Assembly: GCA_015099395.1 (NCBI GenBank)
Contig: AP024096.1
Span: 1,612,001 to 1,676,000 of the forward strand
Length of the DNA: 64,000 nt
Source: Ktedonobacteria bacterium brp13
GTDB taxonomy: Bacteria; Chloroflexota; Ktedonobacteria; Ktedonobacterales; Ktedonobacteraceae
Reading direction: 5' to 3'
Shown: positions 3,764-58,722 of the stretch, in pieces
Position numbering within the stretch: the stretch's first letter is position 1
Layout: every line of letters starts with the position of its first letter
Translations under genes and position numbers: made by a program
The notes under the pieces: model-generated
What the model was told of the DNA's origin: nothing
Databases searched by the model: none
The model's input: the letters and a program-made list of their open reading frames with translations, nothing else

Positions 3764-3916
3764 GTCTGACGAGGGCACCTGCCGACATTCTGGATAGCGC
3801 CGGACGGCCCTTCCAGCTACACTTCCTCTCTAGAAGCTTCATGCTGGACCACACGCTCTGTGGTTCCCGCTGAGGCGCAAAGCGATCCCTCTCTTCAGAT
3901 ACAAAAAGGAGTCCAC

Positions 3917-4183
3917 ATGAAAAAAAAGGATCAGGCTGTCGCGCAAGGTGTGGAGTCTGTAGCCAGCCATGAGGAACACTTCTCGCTACTGCGGATCGAT
4001 CCGATCTCCCGCCGGAGCCTGCTCCGTGGCGGAGTGGCCGCAGTGGCCTTGGCGGCGCTGTCCTCCTGCGACAGCGCGAGATCACCAACCAGTGCGGGAT
4101 CACCAACCAGCACAGGATCACTAGTGCAGGTTCAAGGAAGCTCTTGTGCAAAGGAGAGAGAAACTGCTAGAATGAGAGCATGA
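3917..4183 (+). pseudogene. Tat-exported lipoprotein or substrate-binding protein, truncated by IS630
   Basis: Starts at ATG 3917 behind AAAGGAG. Residues 31-51 form a twin-arginine signal: SRRSLLRGG, then a hydrophobic stretch AAVALAAL and Cys in SSC, which could be a lipobox. A low-complexity Ser/Thr/Gly linker follows (SARSPTSAGSPTSTGS), as in lipid-anchored solute-binding proteins. The frame enters the IS630 end at about 4121-4124 (CTAG) and ends after 88 codons within IS sequence. The mature domain is missing and was not found elsewhere in the window. Confidence 0.6.
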
Positions 4184-4653
4184 AAGCCCCCATGTATGTC
4201 AGAGCCTTGAGTCCAGCCGAGCAGGCAGGGATAGAAGCTGGATTGCGCTCCTCGGATGCCTTTACCCTGCGTCGAAGTCAAATTCTGCTAGCCTCCAGTC
4301 GAGGGCAACGCCCCAAAGAAATCGCCTGCAACCTGGGCTGTGCAACCCAAACCGTACGCAATGCCATCCACGCCTTTGAGCAGAAGGGCTTAGAGTGTCT
4401 CAAGTCCGAGTCCTCTCGGCCCAAAACCGTGCAAGCACAGTTTGACCAGAGCAAATGTGAAGCGCTGCGAGCCCTGTTGCATCAGAGTCCCCGGACGTTC
4501 GGCAAAGCGACAAGCTGTTGGACCCTTGAGTTGGCAGCAGTGGTCTGCTTTGAGCAAAGCTTGACGGCGAATCAGGTGAGTATCGAGACCATTCGACTTG
4601 CCCTGAAGCGACTTGGGGTCAGTTGGCAGCGGGCCAAACACTGGATTACCAGT
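4180..4653 (+). CDS. IS630-family transposase, exon 1 (N-terminal DNA-binding half)
   Basis: Encodes the helix-turn-helix half of an IS630/Tc1-type transposase. LRRSQILLASSRGQ, PKEIACNLGCATQTVRNAIHAF and VSWQRAKHWITS are typical of this family. The exon ends on a codon boundary at Ser (AGT, 4651-4653). The next base starts intron A with GTGCGCC. Joined to 12062, the reading is WITS-PDPEYARK, the expected continuation. Unspliced, the frame ends at 4689 after 12 foreign codons. Confidence 0.88.
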
Positions 4654-5269
4654 GTGCGCCGCGTCGGCGCATATGAAATACCCGCATGAAGCGGGAGAGG
4701 AAGAGAGTAAAAAAACCTCTAGGACAATGACTTACCCGGCGGCGAAAGCTAATGGTGGACAGTAGCATGTCATTAACGCGGAGAATACCAGAAGGCATGT
4801 ATGGGATTGCTCTGCAAGTCCTGTGTGCAAGAAGCCCCGCAAGGGGTAGAGGTGAAGCTGGCCAATTGCTAAACCTAAGTTCCTGCATGATGTTAATCCA
4901 CATCCGTCAAACCATGTCTAAGATGACGACATCGAAAAACCGCAACCGGGCTGGTGTTGCGGCACAAAAAAAAAAAAGATTGCCCTACAACTCGACAATC
5001 TCACGCTCTCTTCGATGTATGGCGGGTAATGAACCCGATAAGGAACAAACGGGCACCTAAACACGCTACACGTTTCATATGCGCAAAAGCGGGATCGCCT
5101 GAAAGCCGCGAGGCTCATGGCGACGGAACCCCCATAGTAAGGACTCAAAGAACAAAGAGGTTCCCGCGAGAAATGAAGGGGCAGCCTGCGAAGGCAGGCC
5201 AGAGTGTATGATTGATACCCATGCACAGGGAAGGTATCAAGAAGTCGCTAACGCATGGAGGTATGCGAA

Positions 5270-6169
5270 ATGCAGAACACCGAAGAGCTTTTAGGACTTC
5301 TCCGTGATCGTGGCAAGCGGGGCTTGCCGTTAAAACGCGTCTATCGGCAACTCTACAACACAAACCTGTACCTCTCGGCCTATGGCCGGGTCTACCGCAA
5401 CGCCGGCGCATTAACACCCGGCGTCACGGATGAAACGGCTGATGGCACTTCGCTGGAAACCTTTGACACCATTATTACTGCACTGAGGCAGGAACAATAT
5501 CAATGGCAACCAGCACGACGAACCTACATCTTGAAAAAGAACGGGAAAAAGAGGCCGCTAGGCTTACCCACCTGGAGCGACAAGCTTCTTGCTGAGGTTA
5601 TGAGGATGATCCTGAACGCTTACTTTGACGAGACATTCAGTGACCACTCTCATGGCTTCCGCGAAGGACGGGGATGCCATACGGCGCTGCGAGAAATCTA
5701 CCACACCTGGAAAGGCTGCGCCTGGATCATCGAGGGCGACATAGCGGATTGCTTCGGAAGCCTCAACCATGACCTCATCATTTCAGCACTCGCTGAACAC
5801 ATCCAGGATGGACGATTTCTCAATCTCGTGAAGAAGCTCCTCGACGCAGGATACATGGAGGACTGGAAACTGAACAAAACCCTTAGCGGTACGCCGCAAG
5901 GTTCGATCCTCAGCCCGATCCTTTCCAATATCCTGCTCTCGAAACTAGACAGGTTCGTAGAAGGAGAACTCATCCCACGATACAACAAAGGGGAGAAAAG
6001 AAGAGAGAATCGGGAATACAAAAGCCTGATGCACCGCGCCTACCGCCTGAGGAAGAAAGGGCAGAAGGAGGCTGCTCAAAAATTAAAACAACAGGCCCAG
6101 AAGCTCCCCTCACAAGACCCACAAGACCCTGATTACCGACGACTGCGGTATTGCCGATATGCCGACGAT
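5270..6169 (+). CDS. Group II intron reverse transcriptase/maturase A, exon 1
   Basis: N-terminal part of the intron-encoded protein: RT0-RT5 up to the catalytic YADD. Motifs include LKRVYRQLYN (RT0/1), KKNGKKRPLGLPT (RT2), SHGFREGRGCHTAL (RT3), IIEGDIADCFGSL (RT4/5 with a catalytic Asp) and TPQGSILSPILSN. The exon stops exactly after GCC GAC GAT (ADD, 6161-6169), where intron B begins with GTGCGCC. ATG 5270 is preferred over 5255 because GGAGG lies 8 bases before it. Spliced to 11035 it gives YADDFALAFTGPRDEAEAIK and a 605-residue protein. Confidence 0.9.
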
Positions 6170-6687
6170 GTGCGCCACTTAACCGGTGGTTAGATCCCTC
6201 TCACAGAGAGGAGAAGTTTGGAGGAAAAGACTTCTGGGTCACTCAACCTACCTGGATGTGAAAGCTGAAGGGGAAATGAGCATGTTGAGAAAGCGGAAAA
6301 GGCAAAGAAGACGCTAAAGGCCTTGTTCTGCAAGACCCGCCTGAACGGTGAAACCTACACTGGCTGAATCGTAGCTTCCAGCGATGAAAGCGTACATCTC
6401 TCGATTACAGCGTCTGTTGCGAGATCGTCCTCATAGGGTGTCAAAATCGTCGGCACCTGAACCCTCCAGAGGATGAGCGGTGAAGAATGACTTCACTCAA
6501 GGGAGCGAACACGGCACCTACGTCAGGCTCGATACGTCTAGCCACACGGGAACTTGGGATGGCCTAAACCGCGCGAGCGGTAAGGTCACGGAACCATCGT
6601 AGTAGTCCGCGCAAGGGAACAAGTAACCTTGTACATGGCGAAGGATGGTAGGTGTTTTCGATACTTACAGAAAGAAAGGTACGCGAG

Positions 6688-7597
6688 ATGCGAACAGCCG
6701 ATCAGGTGTTAAGTATCATCCATGAACGCGGCAAACGAGGATTGCCACTGGAACGAGTCTATCGATTACTGTTCAATCCGGCTTTGTACCTCAAAGCGTA
6801 TGGGAAAATCTATCGAAACAACGGTGCATTAACACCAGGCTCAACGGAAGAAACGGTGGATGGTATGTCCATGTCCAAAATCGCAGCGATCATTGAAGCA
6901 CTGCGATATGAGCGCTATCACTGGACACCAGTGCGACGCATCTACATCGAGAAACGTCACTCGAAGAAGAAACGCCCGCTCGGACTGCCTTCTTGGTCGA
7001 ATAAATTGCTGCAAGAAGTCATGCGACTCATCTTGTCTGCATACTACGAGCCGCAATTCAGTCCCAGTTCACATGGGTTTCGACCAGGCCGAGGATGCCA
7101 CACCGCGCTCTCGGAGATCTACCACACGTGGATAGGCACAAAGTGGATGGTGGAGGGAGATATCGCCCAATGCTTCGACGCGCTCGACCATTCGGTCTTG
7201 CTGTCAATCTTGAGCGAGAACATCCACGATGGTCGATTTCTTCGACTCATCGAAGGACTCCTCAAAGCTGGATATCTGGAAGAGTGGCGCTATCATGCCA
7301 CGTACAGTGGCAGCCCCCAAGGGGGCATTTTGAGCCCGCTGCTCGCCAATATCTATCTGGATAAATTGGACAAATTTGTTGAAACGACTCTTGCTCCAGC
7401 CTACACGCGCGGAGAGCGAAGACGGGTCAATCCCCCATACGGAGCACTCCAAAGACGCGCGTTGGATCTGCGAAAGACAGGAAAACGAGAAGAAGCGGAA
7501 ACACTGCGTCATCAGATGCAGTGTCTGCCCTCCCTCGATCCAACTGACCCAGGATACAGACGGATGCGGTACCTCCGCTATGCCGATGACTGGCTGA
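6688..7597 (+). CDS. Group II intron reverse transcriptase/maturase B, exon 1
   Basis: N-terminal RT half, parallel to RT A: LERVYRLLFN, KKKRPLGLPSWSNK, SHGFRPGRGCHTAL, MVEGDIAQCFDALDH, SPQGGILSPLLAN and YLRYADDWL. ATG 6688 has AGAAAGG in front; an upstream in-frame ATG at 6652 is less likely. The exon ends after the first base of an Ile codon (7597), and intron C begins with GTGCG at 7598. Joined to 10050 the catalytic segment reads YADDWLIGFSGPRKEAEEIK, which is canonical for bacterial intron RTs. The full product would be 596 residues. Confidence 0.9.
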
Positions 7598-8191
7598 GTG
7601 CGACCTGAAGTCGCTTGTGTTGAGTGGAGCAAAGGCGCTCCCAGCCTAGTATCCAAGGCTGTCTCCAATCCCTCTCTGCGTCACTGGCAACGGTGAGGTG
7701 GAAAGCGAGGGGTAACGTCCAAGGAAGCTTCGAGCCGAATGAGGCAACCGGGCAAGGGGAAAACTGGAAGGATGAATGCAAATGAACCTTCGATGAGGCT
7801 GCGTGACGTCGCGGTCATCGAAACGGCTAAAACGATGATGAATGGGACAACGGTCCCTGTGGGCTAAGCCATCCCAGGAATGGATACCCAGTCCCCGCAG
7901 TAAAGAAGGCACTCCTCACCAGTTGTATCTCACACATGCGAAACAGGATAACCCCAATGAAGTCTCAGAGATGGTCGATGCTCTGAGTAAGCCAACCGCA
8001 AGGAAAGCCGAACTCTTCAGTGGGAAAGGGAGGGATCAAAAAGCGAATGCTGCCAGCCGAAAGGCAACAGGAATTCATAACTGGGCAGATAGGGCCGGAA
8101 ACGGAGATACCCACGCCGAAAGGCGGCTGACGTGATCCTGGTGCATTACCCAAAGAACGATGTAAAGGCTATTTATCAAGGGAAAAGTTCG

Positions 8192-9967
8192 ATGCAAGCC
8201 ACACGCTTTGCAAACGGAACCGAGAAGCAGACCGACTGGAACGCGATCAACTGGCGTAAAGCCAATCGGACTGTTCGTAACCTGAGACACCGCATCTTTC
8301 GGGCAGCACAAGAGGGCAACCGGAAACGGGTGCGCTCGCTTCAAAAACTCATGCTGAAAAGCTACTCCAACCGGCTGGTGAGTGTCCGGCGAGTAGCACA
8401 GATCAACGCTGGGAAAAACACGCCCGGGGTGGATAAACTGGTTATCAAAACACCAGCCGCCAGAGGAAGAATGGTCGATACCCTCGCCCACTACACCCTC
8501 TGGAAAGCCAAACCAGCAAAAAGGGTTTACATCCCCAAAGCCAACAACAAGTTAAGGCCGCTCGGAATCCCCGTCATTCAGGATCGCTGCCTTCAGGCAA
8601 TGGTCAAGAACGCCCTGGAACCTTTCTGGGAAGCCAAGTTCGAGGGCACAAGCTACGGATTTCGACCAGGGCGCAGTGGACATGATGCGATCGAGAAAAT
8701 CTTCGGATTGGCTCGACCAAACAAGACCAAGAAATGGGTCTTGGACGCAGATATACGCGGCGCCTTCGACCACATCTCACATGAACACTTGCTCCGGGCC
8801 ATTGGTCCGGTTCCAGGGATGGAACTCATCAAGCAATGGCTCAAAGCAGGTTATGTCGAAAAAGAGGTCTTCTACGCAACAGAGCAAGGAACGCCCCAGG
8901 GCGGCGTCGTGTCGCCCTTATTGGCCAATATTGCCCTACACGGCATGGAAGAGGCCATTGGGGTCAAATATGACTCCCGAGGCCAACTTACTGGCAAACG
9001 GGCAGTCGTGAGGTATGCAGACGACTTCGTATGCTTTTGTGAAACCAGGGAAGATGCCGAGCGAGTGCAAGGCATCCTGACGGAATGGTTGAGAGAGCGC
9101 GGTCTGACCCTCTCGGAGGAAAAGACGCGGATTGTCCACCTGACTGAAGGGTTTGACTTTCTTGGTTTCAATATTCGGCATTACCCCGCGCCGAAAACCT
9201 CACGCACAGGATGGAAACTCCTCATTAAACCCAGCAAAGAGTCAGTACAGGAAGTGCGAACGAAGCTCAAAGTTTTGTGGAAAAAAGCCCACGGAACAAA
9301 CGTCCAAACCGTCCTGGGGCAATTCAACCCGGTTATTCGGGGATGGGCGAACTACTTTCGCACGGCGGTAGCCAAAGAAATCTTTAGCGGCTTGGACTGC
9401 TGGATGTTCTACAAAGAAGATCGGTACACCAGGCGCGCACACCCCAAAAAGGCCAAAGACTGGCGGCATCAACACTATTGGGGCCGATTGCATCTCGAAC
9501 GGAACGATCCCTGGGTGTTTGGTGACAAACAAACCGGGGCGTATCTGCTCAAATTCAGTTGGTTCCCCATTGAACGACATACGCTGGTCAAAGGGACATC
9601 CTCACCCGATGATCCCCGCCTGAGGAGTTACTGGATGGAACGGCAGGCGGCGAAAGCCAAGGACCTGACCTTCTCCAAACAAAAGCTCGTCAAAAGGCAA
9701 CATGGTCGATGTCCACAATGCGGAGAGTCCCTCTTCAAGGATGAAGAACTCCAGATCCATCACCTCCATGCCCGCGCCGATGGGGGAAAGAATGTCTACA
9801 GTAATCTTGTTCTGGTTCATTTGCTCTGCCATCAGCATATTCACGCCGCGTCGAAACGAGCACTGAGCGATTGCCAGGAGTTCAACAACCGTGACCCGCT
9901 GGCGACAAAACGCAAAGCCGCTCGATACACAAAGCGCAGAGAGGAAGAGAAGCAGTGCTGTACGTGA
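8192..9967 (+). CDS. ltrA: Group II intron reverse transcriptase/maturase C with HNH endonuclease (intact)
   Basis: Complete multidomain intron-encoded protein, about 591 residues. Motifs in order: NTPGVDKL (RT1), KLRPLGIPVIQDR (RT2), TSYGFRPGRSGHDAI (RT3), WVLDADIRGAFDHI (RT4), GTPQGGVVSPLLANIAL (RT5) and RYADDFVCFCETREDAE (catalytic). These are followed by GLTLSEEKTRIVHL and a GFDFLGFNIR motif (RT7), a thumb/maturase X region, and a C-terminal HNH nuclease (CPQCGESL, IHHLHARADGG, LLCHQHIH). It is of the cyanobacterial/chloroplast-like type. ATG 8192 is chosen because the N-terminus then matches LtrA proteins; a GTG at 8132 is in frame. It is the only RT in the nest that can be translated without splicing. 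Confidence 0.92.
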   Translation: MQATRFANGTEKQTDWNAINWRKANRTVRNLRHRIFRAAQEGNRKRVRSLQKLMLKSYSNRLVSVRRVAQINAGKNTPGVDKLVIKTPAARGRMVDTLAHYTLWKAKPAKRVYIPKANNKLRPLGIPVIQDRCLQAMVKNALEPFWEAKFEGTSYGFRPGRSGHDAIEKIFGLARPNKTKKWVLDADIRGAFDHISHEHLLRAIGPVPGMELIKQWLKAGYVEKEVFYATEQGTPQGGVVSPLLANIALHGMEEAIGVKYDSRGQLTGKRAVVRYADDFVCFCETREDAERVQGILTEWLRERGLTLSEEKTRIVHLTEGFDFLGFNIRHYPAPKTSRTGWKLLIKPSKESVQEVRTKLKVLWKKAHGTNVQTVLGQFNPVIRGWANYFRTAVAKEIFSGLDCWMFYKEDRYTRRAHPKKAKDWRHQHYWGRLHLERNDPWVFGDKQTGAYLLKFSWFPIERHTLVKGTSSPDDPRLRSYWMERQAAKAKDLTFSKQKLVKRQHGRCPQCGESLFKDEELQIHHLHARADGGKNVYSNLVLVHLLCHQHIHAASKRALSDCQEFNNRDPLATKRKAARYTKRREEEKQCCT

Positions 9968-9974
9968 TGTGCTT

Positions 9975-10008
9975 GAGCCGTGTGCGTTGAGAGGCGCACG
10001 CACGGTTC
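9975..10008 (+). ncRNA. Group II intron domain V (intron C)
   Basis: A 34-nt hairpin beginning GAGCCGTGTGCG and ending GCACGCACGGTTC. The catalytic AGC triad is at its second to fourth bases and a GAGA-type tetraloop sits at the centre, the usual bacterial domain V layout. Domain VI and the 3' splice site (CCCGAC, 10049) follow at once. Confidence 0.92.
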
Positions 10009-10049
10009 TCAGGGGGCCGGGGGACAGCAATGTCCTCTGGCTACCCGAC

Positions 10050-10930
10050 TTGGTTTTAGTGGACCACGTAAAGAAGCCGAAGAAATCAAACACCAAGTAG
10101 GAGTATTCCTCAAGGAAAGACTTCATCTGACGCTTTCCGAGGAAAAGACGCTCATTACTCATGCACGGAGCAATCCGGCAAAATTTCTCGGTTACGACAT
10201 CGTTGTTCTCAACAACAATCGCAAGCATGACCGGCATAGGCATCGTAGTATCAATGGACAAATTGGACTGAAAGTGCCTGCGCAGGTCATACAAGCGAAA
10301 AGCCAGCAGTTTCGTCGCCACGGCAAACCTGTGGCCCGAAAGGAACGGAGCGAAGATACTTGCTACAGTATCATCGCTCAATATCAACAGGAATACCGGG
10401 GACTGGCGCAATATTACCAACTGGCAGTCAACCGTTACCAACTCAATCGGCTCAAATGGGTGATGGAGCGCTCATTAGTGGCCACGCTCGCTGAGAAACT
10501 TCGCATCACGGTTTCTCAGATCTATGACCGCTACGAAACCATGATGGAAACAGTTGATGGACCACGAAAGGTCCTTCAGGTGACAGTAGAACGGGAAGGG
10601 AAACGGCCACTGACAGCCCATTGGGGGGGCATTTCGCTTGCCCGAAATACGAAAGCAATTCTCGCCGACACCATCGCTCCGATCTGGGGAGATCGATCAG
10701 AGCTAGAAAAACGGCTACTCGCAGACACCTGCGAACTCTGCGGATCGCACGAACAGGTGGAAGTCCACCATATTCGAGCTTTGAAGGATCTCCAACAGAA
10801 AGGACAGAAAGAGCGTCCACGATGGATGTATATTATGGCGGCACGACGACGCAAAACGTTAATCGTTTGTCGTTCCTGCCATGATGACATTCATGCTGGG
10901 AGCTTTAGCGGATACCGGACAGGGACATGA
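10050..10930 (+). CDS. Group II intron reverse transcriptase/maturase B, exon 2
   Basis: C-terminal half of RT B, entered only after intron C is spliced: IGFSGPRKEAEEIK, LTLSEEKTLITHA, AKFLGYDIVV (RT7), the maturase segment RSINGQIGLKVP and YRGLAQYYQLA, and an HNH endonuclease (CELCGSHEQVEVHHIRALKDL, CRSCHDDIHAG). The stop at 10928-10930 lies 10 bases before domain V of intron B, the typical domain IV position. An ATG at 9980 extends the same frame upstream into intron C but has no RT similarity. Confidence 0.9.
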
Positions 10931-10940
10931 AAACACTGGA

Positions 10941-10975
10941 GAGCCACGTGCTACGGAAACGGGCATGCGTGGTTC
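10941..10975 (+). ncRNA. Group II intron domain V (intron B)
   Basis: A hairpin starting GAGCCACGTGC and ending GCATGCGTGGTTC, with the AGC triad in place. It lies between the end of RT B and the 3' splice site at 11034 and supports the border assignment of intron B. Confidence 0.88.
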
Positions 10976-11034
10976 GGCGGGGGGCCGGGGGAAAAGGGCT
11001 GCGCACACAGTACCTCGCCTGCGGCCTACCCGAC

Positions 11035-11952
11035 TTCGCGTTAGCCTTTACCGGGCCAAGGGATGAGGCAGAAGCTATCAAACAGTGTCTCCGAACGTTC
11101 CTGCTTGACGAACTCAAGCTGAATCTCTCGGAAGAAAAGACGTTGATCACCCACACACGGGACAGCGCTGCCACATTTCTGAACTATGAAATCACCATCA
11201 TGCAAAGCAACACCAAACAAAACCTCACGAACGGGCACAAACGCCGAAGTATCAATGGAGCAACCGGCTTGAAAGTCCCACGAAGGGTTGTCGAAGACAA
11301 ATGCAAAAGATACATGCGAAAGGGCAAACCCATTCATCGAGCAGAATTGCTCAATGAGAGTGATTTCACCATTGTCGCAACGTACCAACTGGAATATCGG
11401 GGGCTGGTCAATTACTACCGCATGGCCTACAACCTTCACACGCTCCAAAAACTCAAATGGGTCATGGAGCAATCGCTGACAAAGACGTTGGCGCATAAAT
11501 TCAAGATATCAGTTCGCAAAGTCTACAAGGAATACCAGACAGAATTGGATGTCAACGGAAAGAAATACAAGGGGCTACAGGTAATGGTCCCGCGTGAAGG
11601 AAAGAAACCACTGGTAGCCACATGGGGAGGCATCCCCCTCACCTGGGATGTCGCCGCGCCCATCGAGGACGAAATAGAGCGATACCACTGGAAACGGTCA
11701 GAACTCGAACAACGACTACTCGCCCAGGTCTGCGAACAATGCGGGGCAACCCGTATGACCGCAAAAATTGAGGTCCACCATATCCGGGCACTCAAAGATC
11801 TGCAACTGTACGATGGACGAGAAAAGCCCCAATGGGTTCAGATCATGGCCGCTCGCCGAAGGAAAACGCTCGTTCTCTGCCATACTTGCCATGGGGACAT
11901 TCAACACGGACGCCCGCCAAGACGCCATAAGGTATCACGTTCACGGACGTAA
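11035..11952 (+). CDS. Group II intron reverse transcriptase/maturase A, exon 2
   Basis: C-terminal half of RT A: FALAFTGPRDEAEAIK, LNLSEEKTLITHTRD, a maturase X domain (RSINGATGLKVPRR, YRGLVNYYRMAYN) and an HNH module (CEQCGATRMTAKIEVHHIRALKDL, CHTCHGDIQHG). The exon starts at 11035 with TTC, directly following the YADD codons at 6161-6169. It is about as long as, and very similar to, exon 2 of RT B (10050-10930), confirming that A and B are sister introns. Confidence 0.9.
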   Translation, partial: FALAFTGPRDEAEAIKQCLRTFLLDELKLNLSEEKTLITHTRDSAATFLNYEITIMQSNTKQNLTNGHKRRSINGATGLKVPRRVVEDKCKRYMRKGKPIHRAELLNESDFTIVATYQLEYRGLVNYYRMAYNLHTLQKLKWVMEQSLTKTLAHKFKISVRKVYKEYQTELDVNGKKYKGLQVMVPREGKKPLVATWGGIPLTWDVAAPIEDEIERYHWKRSELEQRLLAQVCEQCGATRMTAKIEVHHIRALKDLQLYDGREKPQWVQIMAARRRKTLVLCHTCHGDIQHGRPPRRHKVSRSRT

Positions 11953-11965
11953 TAATGATGCTGGA

Positions 11966-11999
11966 AAGCTGATTACAGTGAAAGCTGTACGATCAGTTT
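11966..11999 (+). ncRNA. Group II intron domain V (intron A)
   Basis: A 34-nt hairpin, AAGCTGATTAC...GATCAGTTT, with the AGC triad at bases 2-4 and a GAAA tetraloop. The closing pair is A-U rather than G-C. It precedes the 3' end of intron A (CCTACCCTAC, 12061). Confidence 0.85.
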
Positions 12000-12061
12000 G
12001 GAGGGGGGCATTCGGATAAAGTACCATTTTCGGACGGCAACTCGCCGGGTGCCTACCCTAC

Positions 12062-12705
12062 CCCGATCCTGAGTATGCCAGAAAAAAAAACGGCGGAATG
12101 CCCTGATTGCGCTGGCCCAGTGCTACGGATGGGTCGTTGGCTACCAGGATGAGGTGTGGTGGAGTCGTGTGAGCCAACCAAACATGCATAGTTGGAGCGA
12201 AGCGAAAGAGCCACTCCATTTGCAGGAACTGACCAAGGACAAGGCCGATCCTGACCCCAAAGCCCTGGCGTGTTATGGGATGCTTTCCGCCGAAACGGGG
12301 CAGATGCACCTGCGCTTTGTTTCCGGACGCCCGGTGAGCCAGGTGACGACCGATTTTCTGGAATGGTTGTGTGAGCAGGTCCAAGCACAGGGGAAAAATG
12401 TCCTGGTGCTTATTTGGGATAACGCTTCCTGGCACGTGAGTAAGCAGGTCAGAACCTGGCTGCGCGAGCACAATCACGCGGTGCTGCAAGACGCTCAAAC
12501 GGGGAAAGCAGGTGTCCGCATCATCCCGTGCTGGCTGCCCACCAAGAGCCCCTGGCTCAACCGAATTGAGCCGAAGTGGGTCCATGGTAAGCGAGCCATT
12601 GTCGAGCCTGCTCGGCTCTTGACCGCAAAGGAGCTCAAACAGCGTGTCTGTGACTACTTTGGCTGTGAACAGGCTGAGCTACTTACACAACAGGTCGCTT
12701 CCTGA
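12062..12705 (+). CDS. IS630-family transposase, exon 2 (catalytic DDE half, needs -1 frameshift)
   Basis: Begins PDPEYARKK directly after intron A. An A9 run (12082-12090) then separates it from the catalytic frame: a -1 slip gives KKKRRNALIALAQCYGWVVGYQDEVWWSR (first catalytic Asp/Glu region). The catalytic DDE part follows in the new frame: LIWDNASWHVSK (second Asp) and LPTKSPWLNRIEPKWVHGKRAI (the P-x-LNPIE-like motif with Glu). Without the slip the frame ends a few codons later. Several IS630 elements use frameshifting on A-runs, so this may be programmed; it could also be decay. Confidence 0.82.
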
Positions 12706-12741
12706 GGCTGGAGTAGGAACTCTTCCATTGGATTCTCCCTT

Positions 12742-13356
12742 TTAAAATGATGTGAGCGCAGCGAGAATACGAGCAGATTGGGCCTTGAACTCTTCAAGGG
12801 GAAGCGGGAGCTTTTCGCTAATGGGGGCGAGCGGGCCGTTCGGCGCAAAATCGCCATGGTAGCGTGGCTGCAGATGACAATGTAAATGCGGGATGGTGTT
12901 GCCCAGAATTTGCAAGTTCATTTTAATCGGCTGGTAGACCTTCTCCAGCGCCTGGGCAACACGCATCAGATCTGCAAAAAACGCGGCCTGATCGGCGGAA
13001 GAGAGATGATAGGGTTCACATACATGCTGCTTACAAATAAACGTGCATTGTCCAGGTGTATCTGGATAATTGTTCAAACGCAAGCGTCCCATTGGGAGGT
13101 CGATCACCGTGCAACCATACGCGTCAATAAGATCGGGCGAAGCAATCGCATCACAAAGTGGGCAGCCATCACCGCGCCGAAGCGCATCCCACTGGTCGCG
13201 TGGCATCCACTCCCCCAGTGCCATCATTAAAAATCCTCGCGTATAGTTGCTCACTCCCCAGGCAAGAAACTCTGCCGCGTTCCGGTTCTGACGCGAAGCA
13301 AACGTTTCTAGCGTTTCTATAATTTGATCATCTAGCTCAAGCTCAATTTTTGGCAA
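12742..13356 (-). CDS. HIT-family protein (histidine triad nucleotide hydrolase/transferase)
   Basis: About 204 residues. A TTG start at 13354-13356 has AGGAGG six bases before it. Residues 1-60 are an extra helical head. CPLC (65-68) resembles a zinc site seen in some HIT proteins. The catalytic triad is HLHCHLQ (His 157, 159, 161), preceded by LGNTIPH. HIT proteins act on nucleoside phosphoramidates or dinucleotides; the substrate cannot be told here. The frame is also open upstream of the TTG and is continuous with a truncated glycosyltransferase up to 14199, so a 485-residue fusion could be read. I take the HIT gene as independent because of its strong ribosome-binding site. Confidence 0.8.
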   Translation of the reverse strand: MPKIELELDDQIIETLETFASRQNRNAAEFLAWGVSNYTRGFLMMALGEWMPRDQWDALRRGDGCPLCDAIASPDLIDAYGCTVIDLPMGRLRLNNYPDTPGQCTFICKQHVCEPYHLSSADQAAFFADLMRVAQALEKVYQPIKMNLQILGNTIPHLHCHLQPRYHGDFAPNGPLAPISEKLPLPLEEFKAQSARILAALTSF

Positions 13357-13469
13357 ATCTTTCCTCCTGAAAAAGCGCAAATCGGAATCATTGGAACGCT
13401 CCGACCTGCTTGCTCTTGAGATTTTTTGATTTCGGACGCGAAGCCCCTTGCTTAGGTTAACAGCTTTCC

Positions 13470-13505
13470 CTCCTTTGCACAAGAGCTTCCTTGAACCTGC
13501 ACTAG
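13470..13505 (-). repeat. Second IS630-type terminal sequence, inverted relative to 4121-4156
   Basis: These 36 bp are the exact reverse complement of 4121-4156 and finish in CTAG. They lie exactly where the glycosyltransferase reading frame stops matching its family, so they mark the end of an IS630-like element of which only about 35-130 bp remain (13357-13505), the rest being replaced by the HIT locus. Confidence 0.7.
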
Positions 13506-14199
13506 CAACAGAAGTAGTTAGCAAACTATAAGCTTGAATAAGCCTCTCTAGATTCTTTCGTGGAAAATTATCACCTACGTATAAGAGGTAGGGATCAGAA
13601 ACACCTAATTCTGTCAATACTATAGTTTTAGATATATCACGATTGTTTGGGGCAAATAACAGCGCGGGTGCAATGTATACAGGTCTGACTGGAATATGAT
13701 CGATGTTCCATAATTCATAGATATCTTGAGCTGTGAATTGTGATACTGTGATAATTGCATTTGCATGTTCAGCACACCGTTTAGCCCACTTCCGATAATA
13801 TTTAGTACTACGTTCTGAATTATAGTGGTCAGATCTTTCAAAAACCAGGTCATGTACTGTTACAACTTTTGGTCCATCCCATTTCAAGGGAGCCATAAAC
13901 GCTGGATTAAAGAAAACATCTACTTTGTGGTTTTCCAATTGCACAGGTAGTATCTCCTGCTTCCAGTACACGCGGAAATCATAGGGGTCCTCTGGAGTAT
14001 TTTCGTCCGCATTTATGACCTGAATACTCAAGCGCTTAGAGGTGGTTACTAATTCAAGATCAGGCAAAAGTGCCTCAGGAACAAATGCTATTATCTCATC
14101 TTGATCTAGATTTATGAGAGCATTGATAATATTTGTGGTGTAAGTCCCTATACCACCATGACGTGACGAAGCAAATTTCGCATCGATACCAATTTTCAC
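13506..14199 (-). pseudogene. Glycosyltransferase (GT4-like) N-terminal half, truncated
   Basis: Begins MKIGIDAKFASSRHGGIGTYT, a typical GT4 N-terminus with the GGIGTY loop. VVTVHDLVFE and AIITVSQFTAQDI follow, then LGVSDPYLLYVGDNFPRKNLERLIQAY, the start of the C-terminal nucleotide-sugar domain. The match ends at an IS630-type end (13505), so the EX7E active-site region is lost. The DNA is clearly more AT-rich than the flanking IS, as is the next gene rightward. The two may once have been part of one polysaccharide or glycolipid locus. Confidence 0.75.
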
Positions 14200-55537: not shown

Positions 55538-56295
55538 GTGCGCCTGTTAGCTTATCGAGGAGTTGCTCAAAAGAGCCGTACTTGAGTAGTGGTACGAGGG
55601 GTAAGCGGCCTGCGTCCAACAGCGGCACTGTTGGGGGTGGGAAGCCCGCTGACAATGTACCGGATGGGTCTAGCCAAAAGACCCATCGGGCTACCCCTGC
55701 GACCTATGCTGACGAATGGGGAAAATATGACCCCGCGAAGGAACCTGCGTAAATGTCGTTACTACCGAAGAAGGAAATGGCTGATACCCTCTAGCCAAAA
55801 GGCACGGCGGCTGACTCATTGGTTTCCTGGTCCAATGAGTGCTACTTCATTGTCCGCCCAGCGTAAAGCAGGCATGCTAAGGGTTGCTTTCACTTCTCGA
55901 TAGGAAATCAGGGAACTCTCAAACCGCTTTCCCCGGAAGGGATGCGAGAATGCCAGCATGCGGCAGAGAGGGCGGAGGCGGCGTAGTAATCAAATGCTCT
56001 CCTGTAATGGGAGAGACACGGTGAAGGTCCGCCAGGGGAGACTCAAACGAACAGAAGATCAACAAGCGAACCAGAGAAAGCAGATGACAGAAGAAGTAGT
56101 GGGGCCTTGTTCTCCGGCATAGCGGGGGACCCCATGCAACAGGTTGTGCTGTGCTTCGACTGGTGCGCTCTGGAATGGATGACATCATCCATTAGTTTGC
56201 CGCTTCCTAGTAGCCGAGTCGAACTGGAAAGCCGGATGTGTTAAAAGGCACCTGTCCGGTTTGGAGCGGGGGAAAGGCCGTGAGGCCCTACCTAT
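55538..56295 (+). mobile_element. ORF-less group II intron (copy D1)
   Basis: Starts GTGCGCCTG (55538), carries domain V at 56229-56262 and ends CCTACCTAT (56295), 758 nt. It has no RT gene, so it needs a maturase in trans. It interrupts the IS1182 transposase on a codon boundary (VGPG | RYY). A nearly identical copy in inverted orientation lies at 57964-58722. They differ by a 1-nt indel and at least one base change. Confidence 0.82.
56229..56262 (+). ncRNA. Group II intron domain V (copy D1)
   Basis: AAGCCGGATGTG...CCTGTCCGGTTT, 34 nt with the AGC triad at bases 2-4, followed by a domain VI-like stem (GGCCGTGAGGCC) and the 3' end. Confidence 0.82.
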
Positions 56296-56305
56296 CGCTA
56301 CTACG

Positions 56306-57953
56306 TGTAAAATTCGTAACTATTCAGAAGGGCTATGCAGTTGCAGAAGAATGATCGATCTGCTAGAGTAGCCACATGACGAACGATGAAGAATTGGGAC
56401 AACTCCGATCTGAGAAGACGAAGTGGTACGAACTCTTGCGGCAGAAAGACGAAAAGCTGGAGCAGTCGTATCAGGCAAATCAGACGCTGCGTGAAGGACT
56501 CACACAAGCGATCACCGCCATTGAGTCTTTGCAAGAACGTGTCAAAGACCTCGAAGCGCTGGTCGAGTCGAAACAAGAGCGCATCAAAATCCTCGAAGGA
56601 CAGCAGGCCAAGGATAGCCACAATAGTAGCTTACCTCCTTCCTCCGATCGCTTCGTTCGTCCCCCGAAGAGCTTGCGACAAAAAAGTGGGAAGAAAGCAG
56701 GCGGGCAACCAGGTCATCGCGGGCACCATTTGCAGCAGGTAGAAACTCCTGATCAAGTCCTCATTCACCCTGTTGAACGTTGTGAGCGCTGTCAGTATGA
56801 TCTGCGAGCTCAAACCGCAGACCTCCCAGAGCGGCGTCAAGTGATGGATTTGCCGGTCAAACGACTCTGGGTCACCGAACATCGAGTCGAAGAAAAGCAA
56901 TGTCCCCACTGTTTTCACCTGACGCGAGCGTCCTTCCCCGCAATCGTGAAAGCTCCTGCGCAGTATGGGACGGGCATCCAGACAATAGCCACCTATCTGG
57001 TAGAAGGCCAGGCTGTTCCTTACGCTCGCGCCAGTCAACTCCTGCAGGAGCTGCTCGGCGTCCAACTCTCGGCAGGCAGCATCGCCAGCTTTGTCAAAAC
57101 GTGCCATCAGCAATTAGCCGACGTGGAACAAGAGCTCAAAGCGGGTCTGGTGAAAGCATCTGTCGTCAATCAGGATGAAACGGGACTGCGTGTCGGAACT
57201 GATGGATGGTGGGTTCATGTCTGCTCGACCGACCGACTTACCCACTATGCAGCTCACCCTTGCCGAGGGCGAGCAGGCTTGGATGCCATTGGCATTGCTC
57301 CTCTCTTTCGTGGCACCAGCGTCCACGATGGTTTGAAGAGCTACCAGGGATACTCCTTCACGCAAGCATTGTGCAACGTCCATCACCTGCGCGAACTGAC
57401 CTTCATCGAAGAAGAACTCAAACAAGCCTGGGCACGCAAGATGAAAGATCTGCTTTTGGACATGAAAGCCGAAGTTGAGCAGGCCAAAGCCTTGGGCCAA
57501 CAGGAACTCGATGTGCTGGTGCTGGCACGTTTGCTCTGCCGTTACGATGAAATCCTCAAAGAGGGCTACCAAGCCAATCCCCCTCCCCCACCGCCGAGGA
57601 AGACTGAGCAGTCGAAGCGCAAACCAGGGCGAGCCAAACAAAACCCTGCTCGTAACCTGCTGGACCGATTCTCCACGTGCAAATGGCAGGTGCTGCGGTT
57701 CCTGCACGATTTTGCCGTTCCATTTGACAACAATCTGGCGGAGCGAGATCTCAGGATGATCAAAGTACAGCAAAAAGTCTCTGGTTGCTTCCGAACTGAG
57801 CATGGAATCGCCATGTTCTGTCGCATTCGCAGCTACCTCTCGACACTACGAAAACAAGGTATTGCGCTCTTCTCTGCACTTAACAACACTTTGGCTGGGT
57901 ATCCTGTTCTTCCCACTTTTGCATGAGCCTTCTGAATAGTTACGGTTTTTACA
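56306..57953 (+). mobile_element. IS66-family insertion sequence
   Basis: The ends TGTAAAA(TT/AC)CGTAACTATTCAGAAGG match in inverted orientation (56306 rightward, 57953 leftward). The element is 1.65 kb with a single transposase gene and lacks the TnpA/TnpB accessory genes of classical IS66. Outside it on both sides is TATCGCTACT in inverted orientation, part of the surrounding intron-exon repeats; no direct target duplication is evident. Confidence 0.85.
56376..57926 (+). CDS. IS66-family transposase (TnpC type, intact)
   Basis: 516 residues. An N-terminal coiled coil (about 5-75) is followed by LPPSSDRFVRPPKSLRQKSGKKAGGQPGHRGHHL (basic linker) and a zinc-binding CERCQYDLR...CPHCFHL. The DDE core is SVVNQDETGLRVGTDGWWVHVCSTDRLTHY (Asp), GTSVHDGLKSYQGYSFTQALCNVHHLREL (Asp) and DNNLAERDLRMIKVQQKVSGCFRTEHG (Glu). 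It is full length and without internal stops, so the copy may be active. Confidence 0.93.
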   Translation: MTNDEELGQLRSEKTKWYELLRQKDEKLEQSYQANQTLREGLTQAITAIESLQERVKDLEALVESKQERIKILEGQQAKDSHNSSLPPSSDRFVRPPKSLRQKSGKKAGGQPGHRGHHLQQVETPDQVLIHPVERCERCQYDLRAQTADLPERRQVMDLPVKRLWVTEHRVEEKQCPHCFHLTRASFPAIVKAPAQYGTGIQTIATYLVEGQAVPYARASQLLQELLGVQLSAGSIASFVKTCHQQLADVEQELKAGLVKASVVNQDETGLRVGTDGWWVHVCSTDRLTHYAAHPCRGRAGLDAIGIAPLFRGTSVHDGLKSYQGYSFTQALCNVHHLRELTFIEEELKQAWARKMKDLLLDMKAEVEQAKALGQQELDVLVLARLLCRYDEILKEGYQANPPPPPPRKTEQSKRKPGRAKQNPARNLLDRFSTCKWQVLRFLHDFAVPFDNNLAERDLRMIKVQQKVSGCFRTEHGIAMFCRIRSYLSTLRKQGIALFSALNNTLAGYPVLPTFA

Positions 57954-57963
57954 GTGAGTAGCG

Positions 57964-58722
57964 ATAGGTAGGGCCTCACGGCCTTTCCCCCGCTCCAAAC
58001 CGGACAGGTGCCTTTTAACACATCCGGCTTTCCAGTTCGACTCGGCTACTAGGAAGCGGCAAACTAATGGATGATGTCATCCATTCCAGAGCGCACCAGT
58101 CGAAGCACAGCACAACCTGTTGCATGGGGTCCCCCGCTATGCCGGAGAACAAGGCCCCACTACTTCTTCTGTCATCTGCTTTCTCTGGTTCGCTTGTTGA
58201 TCTTCTGTTCGTTTGAGTCTCCCCTGGCGGACCTTCACCGTGTCTCTCCCATTACAGGAGAGCATTTGATTACTACGCCGCCTCCGCCCTCTCTGCCGCA
58301 TGCTGGCATTCTCGCATCCCTTTCGGGGAAAGCGGTTTGAGAGTTCCCTGATTTCCTATCGAGAAGTGAAAGCAACCCTTAGCATGCCTGCTTTACGCTG
58401 GGCGGACAATGAAGTAGCACTCATTGGACCAGGAAACCAATGAGTCAGCCGCCGTGCCTTTTGGCTAGAGGGTATCAGCCATTTCCTTCTTCGGTAGTAA
58501 CGACATTTACGCAGGTTCCTTCGCGGGGTCATATTTTCCCCATTCGTCAGCATAGGTCGCAGGGGTAGCCCGATGGGTCTTTTGGCTAGACCCATCCGGG
58601 TACATTGTCAGCGGGCTTCCCACCCCCAACAGTGCCGCTGTTGGACGCAGGCCGCTTACCCCTCGTACCACTACTCAAGTACGGCTCTTTTGAGCAACTC
58701 CTCGATAAGCTAACAGGCGCAC
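57964..58722 (-). mobile_element. ORF-less group II intron (copy D2, inverted)
   Basis: Reading the minus strand: GTGCGCC at 58722, domain V at 57997-58030, CCTACCTAT ending at 57964, 759 nt. It is a near-perfect copy of D1. The 5' exon matches D1's over GAGGTAGGNCNAGGA and the 3' exon starts CGCTACT as at D1. Its 5' exon borders the D-Ala-D-Ala ligase stump. Confidence 0.82.
57997..58030 (-). ncRNA. Group II intron domain V (copy D2)
   Basis: Identical to the domain V of copy D1 (56229-56262), on the opposite strand. The AGC triad is intact. Confidence 0.8.

Follow-up and report, generated by a model that had tools for sequence, protein, structure and literature searches.

How does a single transposase gene come to hold three group II introns stacked one inside the other, and could such a stack still unpack itself? 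The question is raised by a 64,000-nucleotide stretch (G000:C1:1612001-1676000, hereafter the window) of the 8.88-Mb, single-contig genome of Ktedonobacteria bacterium brp13. In it an IS630 element (approximately 4124-12713) encloses intron A (4654-12061), which encloses intron B (6170-11034), which in turn encloses intron C (7598-10049), the intron coordinates being exact. The three layers are present, their reverse transcriptases (RTs) are continuous after virtual splicing, domains I-III of A and B covary, each layer has its own domain V, and the inner introns fall in the box encoding the RT active-site motif Tyr-Ala-Asp-Asp (YADD). The nest very probably arose by repeated site-specific retrohoming, the inner introns being predicted to aim at the YADD codons, and C, B, and A predicted to splice in that order.

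Three layers and their removal

The initial annotation had described a transposase gene of the IS630 family interrupted by three group II introns, one within another, with these boundaries and a domain V in each layer, and both RF00029 and the comparison of copies agree with it. Matches to RF00029 end at 10049 (60.6 bits), 11034 (47.3 bits), and 12061 (54.3 bits), that is, at all three 3' ends, and all are above the gathering score. Virtual removal of C, B, and A gives introns of 2452, 2413, and 2543 nucleotides (nt), respectively, whose spliced RT frames run for 624, 608, and 611 amino acids (aa) from stop to stop. RVT_1, maturase, and HNH domains were found in the RT genes of the nest by domain search; the C RT scores above the TIGR04416 cut-off, and the interrupted RTs of A and B match the same model in two pieces, in order. 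As in a twintron, taking out the inner intron restores the outer RT frame, and relatives with empty sites exist. The parts of the nest are as follows (window positions, strand, feature, and basis).

4654-6169, +: 5' half of intron A, with domains I-III and the RT up to YADD (sequence, comparison, consensus fold)
4895-4899, +: predicted exon-binding site 2 (EBS2) of A, AATCC, pairing with GGATT of the 5' exon (loop in the consensus fold)
4950-4955, +: predicted EBS1 of A, GCTGGT, pairing with ACCAGT of the 5' exon (loop in the consensus fold; only partly unpaired when A is folded alone)
6170-7597, +: 5' half of intron B, directly after the YADD codons of RT A (comparison of copies)
6390-6394, +: predicted EBS2 of B, GCGTA, pairing with TAYGC, the Tyr-Ala codons (loop in the B/B16 fold and the consensus fold)
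6446-6451, +: predicted EBS1 of B, ATCGTC, pairing with GAYGAY, the Asp-Asp codons (loop in the B/B16 fold and the consensus fold)
7598-10049, +: intron C in RT B, 7 bases past the YADD codons, TGGCTGA/TTGG (RF00029, identical copies)
8132-9967, +: the RT/maturase/HNH gene of C, the sole uninterrupted RT in the nest (open reading frame, profile matches)
9973-10049, +: domains V-VI of C (RF00029, 60.6 bits)
10050-11034, +: 3' half of intron B, with the rest of RT B and domains V-VI (RF00029 at 10939-11034, 47.3 bits)
11035-12061, +: 3' half of intron A, with the rest of RT A and domains V-VI (RF00029 at 11964-12061, 54.3 bits)

The remaining ribozyme domains were approached by aligning eight relatives (B, B16, A, A13, A16, I, H, and J) over their 5' part. 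The resulting consensus for domains I-III of A and B has 108 pairs, 81 of which have changed on both sides, and 91.4% of its cells are paired, compared with 68.1% after shuffling and 35.9 to 41.4% after sliding, the slid control being one that favors the consensus because the structure was derived from the sequences counted. For intron C, RF02012, a partial model of domains I-IV only, matches at 7641-7752 (47.4 bits, cut-off 34). The Rfam D1-D4 models gave no match to A or B at E values up to 0.1. Covariance models, which the initial annotation had named as a check for three complete ribozymes, recover domains V-VI in all three layers and part of the upstream structure in C, but not the D1-D4 domains of A and B. 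The description of the nest as intact-looking holds for the introns, in view of their RT frames and domain V, the covarying domains I-III in A and B, and the partial model of C. It does not clearly hold for the transposase, given the -1 frameshift that its frame requires.

Empty sites and related nests

The boundaries were confirmed by comparing copies. The flanks of C in B differ from those of C in another intron, G, and the two break at the same intron base; the same is true of B in A, F, and H of this genome. Intron F carries B at 1.58 Mb, and a B-free copy of F lies at 4.65 Mb in the same genome. The empty and filled versions are 99.58% identical over 1435 nt and 99.60% identical over 748 nt, and in the empty one the two sides of the B site adjoin, with neither duplication nor loss. 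About 250 bases upstream of this truncated empty F ends a domain V match (L053, 8615-8940; 44.8 bits), which points to another intron remnant there.

One A-like intron in this genome has an uninterrupted YADDFALAFTG, matching virtually spliced A. B16, from Ktedonobacter sp. SOSP1-85 (same family as the window genome), shares 79% identity with B; its C site is empty, and its open 608-aa RT reads YADDWLIGFSG without a break, matching virtually spliced B. At the outermost level, two A-free IS630 copies (L074 in genome G014 and L078 in G005) are open across WITS/PDP, and in genome G013 that IS630 site is occupied by a relative of A (84.5% identical) whose YADD lacks B. Two further introns may be mentioned here: a short derivative of A with no room for an RT gene, at the same IS630 site in G013 (L109, reverse strand, 1872-2635), and the A-like intron I, which has some 2 kb of unexplained sequence between the middle of its RT and its 3' part (L051, 12265-14228).

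The introns of this genome were listed from an RF00029 search in which 150 of 615 candidates were scored, and the list may therefore be incomplete. The genome contains at least five related nests or twintrons, the window's (N1) included. The other four are N2 (F containing B containing C), N3 (G containing C), N4 (IS630 containing A containing B, with C' and D in B), and N5 (H containing B, again with C' and D). SOSP1-85 has B16 after YADD in K, L, and A16, at four loci, and L containing B16 containing D16 makes another three-deep nest.

A site rule that the initial annotation does not mention runs through these nests. The B family sits directly after YADD in six host RTs of two species (A, F, and H; K, L, and A16), C sits 7 bases past the YADD codons in two RT genes (B and G), and D-family introns sit just 3' of domain V in three introns (B, B16, and K). 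Virtual splicing of seven host introns (A, F, G, H, K, L, and A16) gave RTs of 585 to 687 aa with YADD restored. The D insertions fall 6 to 10 bases past the GGTTC that closes domain V (L037, 8367-10770; L038, 7813-10216; L063 and L064, reverse strand), where D would presumably interfere with the host ribozyme for as long as it stays in place.

Many of the copies are very similar. Intron A of N1 differs from that of N4 by 2 substitutions and a 3-nt indel in 2543 nt, the surrounding IS630 exons being 82 to 83% identical; B copies differ at up to five positions in 2413; C is the same at three places (0 differences in 2452); and SOSP1-85 has four B16 copies that agree at all 2412 nt. The close match among the A and C copies would be a sign of recent mobility. 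C' is 90.7% identical to C and occupies the same site in B. Because C and C' are 9.3% apart at one site while B copies are about 0.2% apart, that site must have been filled or replaced at least twice.

Occupancy is partial. Among 31 YADD-like sites in the stretches fetched from this genome, 4 hold B, 5 hold C or C', and 22 have no insert there, and none of the four B and four B16 copies examined has B inside B. Within the family, YADD followed directly by GTGCG occurs in 2 of 29 genomes, the C-type site in 1, and the A-type IS630 site in 3, two of the A copies, both in G014, matching A over only about 200 nt. The same YADD/GTGCG arrangement was rejected as a habit of the whole phylum: 5 of 400 genomes match, and three of these matches (L067-L069) are not RT-like by eye, which leaves 2 of 400. 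A scan of genome contigs with two peptide patterns matched only SOSP1-85 and may omit the records of the window genome itself, so it does not establish that B is rare.

Predicted guide loops and the YADD codons

What would direct these introns to their sites? Two hairpin loops in the consensus fold hold GCGTA and ATCGTC in B, or AATCC and GCTGGT in A. Read at fixed columns in six introns (A, A16, I, B, H, and J), the loops pair with the introns' own exons at 33 of 36 EBS1 positions and 27 of 30 EBS2 positions, and none of 719 other exon assignments is as good for EBS1, EBS2, or both. Ten of the sixteen rows stand outside this count, among them second copies of A and B, A13 (two), A14 fragments (two), and B16; by eye, EBS1 of A13 pairs at 5 of 6. 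Read strictly by column, EBS1 of A16 pairs at 3 of 6, rising to 6 of 6 with a shift of one base, and EBS2 scores 3 of 5 for H and 4 of 5 for B. At the six B-family sites, EBS2 read one column on pairs at 5 of 5 throughout, and EBS1 pairs at 6, 5, and 6 of 6 positions for B in A, F, and H and at 6 of 6 for B16 in each of K, A16, and L. Opposite the three degenerate Y positions B has G, G, and A, and B16 has G, G, and G; the two introns are related, so their codon-facing pattern is not independent evidence. When pairing was searched for unguided, only 1 of 300 shuffled exons did as well as the true exon of B. These results make it likely that the middle intron, B, is steered by RNA guide loops matching the YADD codons.

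A pathway can be proposed on this basis. Intron A would target the IS630 site, entering directly after TGGATYACNAGY. B would enter RT A, its EBS2 (GCGUA) pairing with UAYGC and its EBS1 (AUCGUC) with GAYGAY; the four-fold degenerate base of the Ala codon is predicted to be left unpaired, so that a single intron could enter many RT genes. C would target a site 7 bases further on. Since only C has an uninterrupted RT within the nest, splicing is best pictured as a cascade in which loss of C would make RT B readable, loss of B would make RT A readable, and loss of A would join the transposase exons. The joined transposase would still need a -1 frameshift at an A9 run, and RTs from other copies in the genome could serve in place of those in the nest.

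Several observations weigh against this reading of the nest. Some of the comparison copies are damaged: the empty F ends after its 748-nt part, with its 3' end and domain V missing, and the RT of the G013 A relative is frameshifted at about residue 100; the damage does not touch the empty sites as such. The consensus structure was counted on its own source sequences, and the EBS columns were picked after A and B had been inspected. The unguided pairing search gave no signal for A, with 162 of 300 shuffled exons doing as well, and a weak one for C (30 of 300). A search by column across introns of the C type also failed, 80 of 120 permutations doing equally well, and no guide was found for C. 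B in F has one EBS1 mismatch in six, and 4 of the 22 insert-free YADD-like sites pair fully with both EBS1 and EBS2 of B, so EBS pairing is insufficient for occupancy. The low ratios of nonsynonymous to synonymous substitution (0.098 for A/A16, 0.100 for B/B16, 0.125 for C/C', and 0.112 for D/D16), which count in favor of the reading, mostly reflect the time before nesting. Finally, units of B, C', and D are near-identical at two loci, and spread in blocks or through gene conversion is therefore possible for some nests.

This last point bears on the alternative that survives best, namely, that the inner introns moved as ready-made composites or through gene conversion between intron copies rather than by homing layer by layer. 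At the two loci B (1 difference in 2413), C' (0 in 2452), and D (0 in 2404) match together inside different outer hosts, and the identity of the four B16 copies fits equally well. Yet the gap between C and C' within nearly uniform B copies speaks for repeated filling or replacement of one site, the B family is found in six different hosts, C also occurs in G without B, and F is known both with and without B. On this evidence we regard wholesale movement as possible but somewhat doubtful for the inner layers.

It seems unlikely that the nest is instead a dead heap, a graveyard of parasites inserted under weak selection that never splices from the inside out. The in-frame stop in the N4 transposase, the damage to the empty F and the G013 A relative, and the short matches of the two A copies in G014 would suit such a heap. 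Against it stand the open RT frames of all seven host introns tried, the low substitution ratios, the 0 to 5 differences among copies, and a structure kept through compensatory change. Near-identical copies of A, B, and C are hard for assemblers, but a merging artefact is scarcely credible when each nest is set in outer flanks of its own, some differences are private to single nests, and the same type of nest occurs in the independent assembly of SOSP1-85.

Repeated retrohoming at the YADD codons can be carried a step further, as a tentative proposal to which we give slightly less than even weight: a bacterial intron family may have made the YADD motif its homing site, its guide loops reading Tyr-Ala-Asp-Asp codons, and together with D may build nests that unpack themselves. 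If so, with G opposite most synonymous Y positions and the Ala base skipped, silent mutation would hardly let victims escape; with D beside domain V, the introns would attack two parts indispensable to an intron; and the enzyme of each layer would be readable only once the next inner layer had been spliced. The nests point to site-specific hyperparasitism among bacterial group II introns, with one host intron present both filled and empty in a single genome. Two questions become testable: whether three layers can unpack themselves by splicing, and whether evolution can fit an RNA guide to a protein motif by way of the codons that encode it. The system might in addition supply natural rules for retargeting gene insertion tools built on introns.

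The host element and known systems

The element that carries the nest has the features of the IS630 family, with a helix-turn-helix (HTH) plus DDE transposase, terminal TA, and inverted repeats.

4124-12713, +: IS630-family element with TA on both sides (4122-4123 and 12714-12715) and imperfect terminal inverted repeats (putative ends)
4180-4653, +: transposase 5' exon, the HTH part, with last residues W-I-T-S (IS630 profile; empty homologues)
12062-12705, +: transposase 3' exon, the DDE part (profile matches)
12082-12090, +: A9 run at which the transposase must shift -1 to remain open (sequence, frame comparison)

NF033545 matches both exons (60.5 and 74.2 bits, each half being below the full-length cut-off of 100), and a DDE_3 match was also obtained. 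The initial annotation had all three junctions rejoining exactly in frame. This was borne out for RT B and RT A (608 and 611 aa), and the transposase junction does read WITS-PDPEYARK in frame once A is removed, but a stop follows after 14 codons, the joined frame reading PDPEYARKKNGGMP and then stop, and the DDE half continues only in the -1 frame across the A9 run. A wholly intact transposase is ruled out by this stop unless a -1 frameshift occurs. Two other IS630 copies (L087 and L089) need the -1 shift as well, and L075 has the same run as L087 behind a different upstream sequence. The transposases of L077 and N4 have in-frame stops and would require a different shift; L074 and L078, without the intron, are open, L076 is open beyond its intron, and L088 is out of register in the frame comparison. 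Both programmed -1 frameshifting and decay are possible.

At its left side the IS630 end falls within a short frame (3860-4183), seemingly split by the element, that carries a putative twin-arginine-like lipoprotein signal (RRSLLRGGVAAVALAALSSCD). Downstream, a single frame on the reverse strand (12742-14199) combines what are presumably a glycosyltransferase-like N-terminal part and a HIT-like C-terminal part. Farther along, at 55600-58700, two inverted and apparently near-identical group II intron stretches flank an IS66 transposase gene (56376-57923) in the manner of a composite element, with RF00029 matches of 49.5 bits each on either side of the gene at 56227-56301 (+) and 57958-58032 (-).

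Nested group II introns were reportedly described in Methanosarcina acetivorans and Methanosarcina mazei by Dai and Zimmerly in 2003. In Trichodesmium erythraeum, sequential splicing of a twintron has been shown (PMC4649490); like it, the nest in the window is a bacterial case of introns within introns in a protein-coding gene. The Trichodesmium twintron has two layers, whereas here there are three, each with its own RT, and their splicing is predicted. The TeI3/TeI4 introns of Thermosynechococcus elongatus offer another likeness: introns of one family share a single conserved position within RT genes that belong to other introns, some of which keep continuous ORFs (open reading frames) (PMC2882425). 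There the inner introns are ORF-less and lie between two start codons, whereas here they carry RTs and split the region of a catalytic motif. The mat1f twintrons of Porphyridium similarly have one inner intron in two different outer introns; they are plastid twintrons of two layers, and their outer intron-encoded proteins are remnants (PMC4476101).

Our literature search, which covered titles and the beginnings of abstracts and left most subscription journals outside its scope, returned no description of a bacterial triple nest or of targeting to YADD codons. To call the nest unusual is therefore fair for bacteria in the literature searched; among archaea, nests are described in Methanosarcina (PMC4424553, PMC1712230). 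As described there, up to five introns are nested in M. acetivorans (PMC4424553), and Methanosarcina introns tend to enter the RT genes of other group II introns (PMC1712230), so both repeated homing into group II introns and the tendency toward RT genes are shared with the present nest on the reading proposed here. The Methanosarcina nests are archaeal and reported without coding ORFs in their flanks; unlike them, by description, the present nest has a transposase gene as its outer exon, draws on several intron families, and is pinned to the YADD codons. With RT-gene nesting already known from Methanosarcina, the bacterial nest would seem to be a variant of a known phenomenon.

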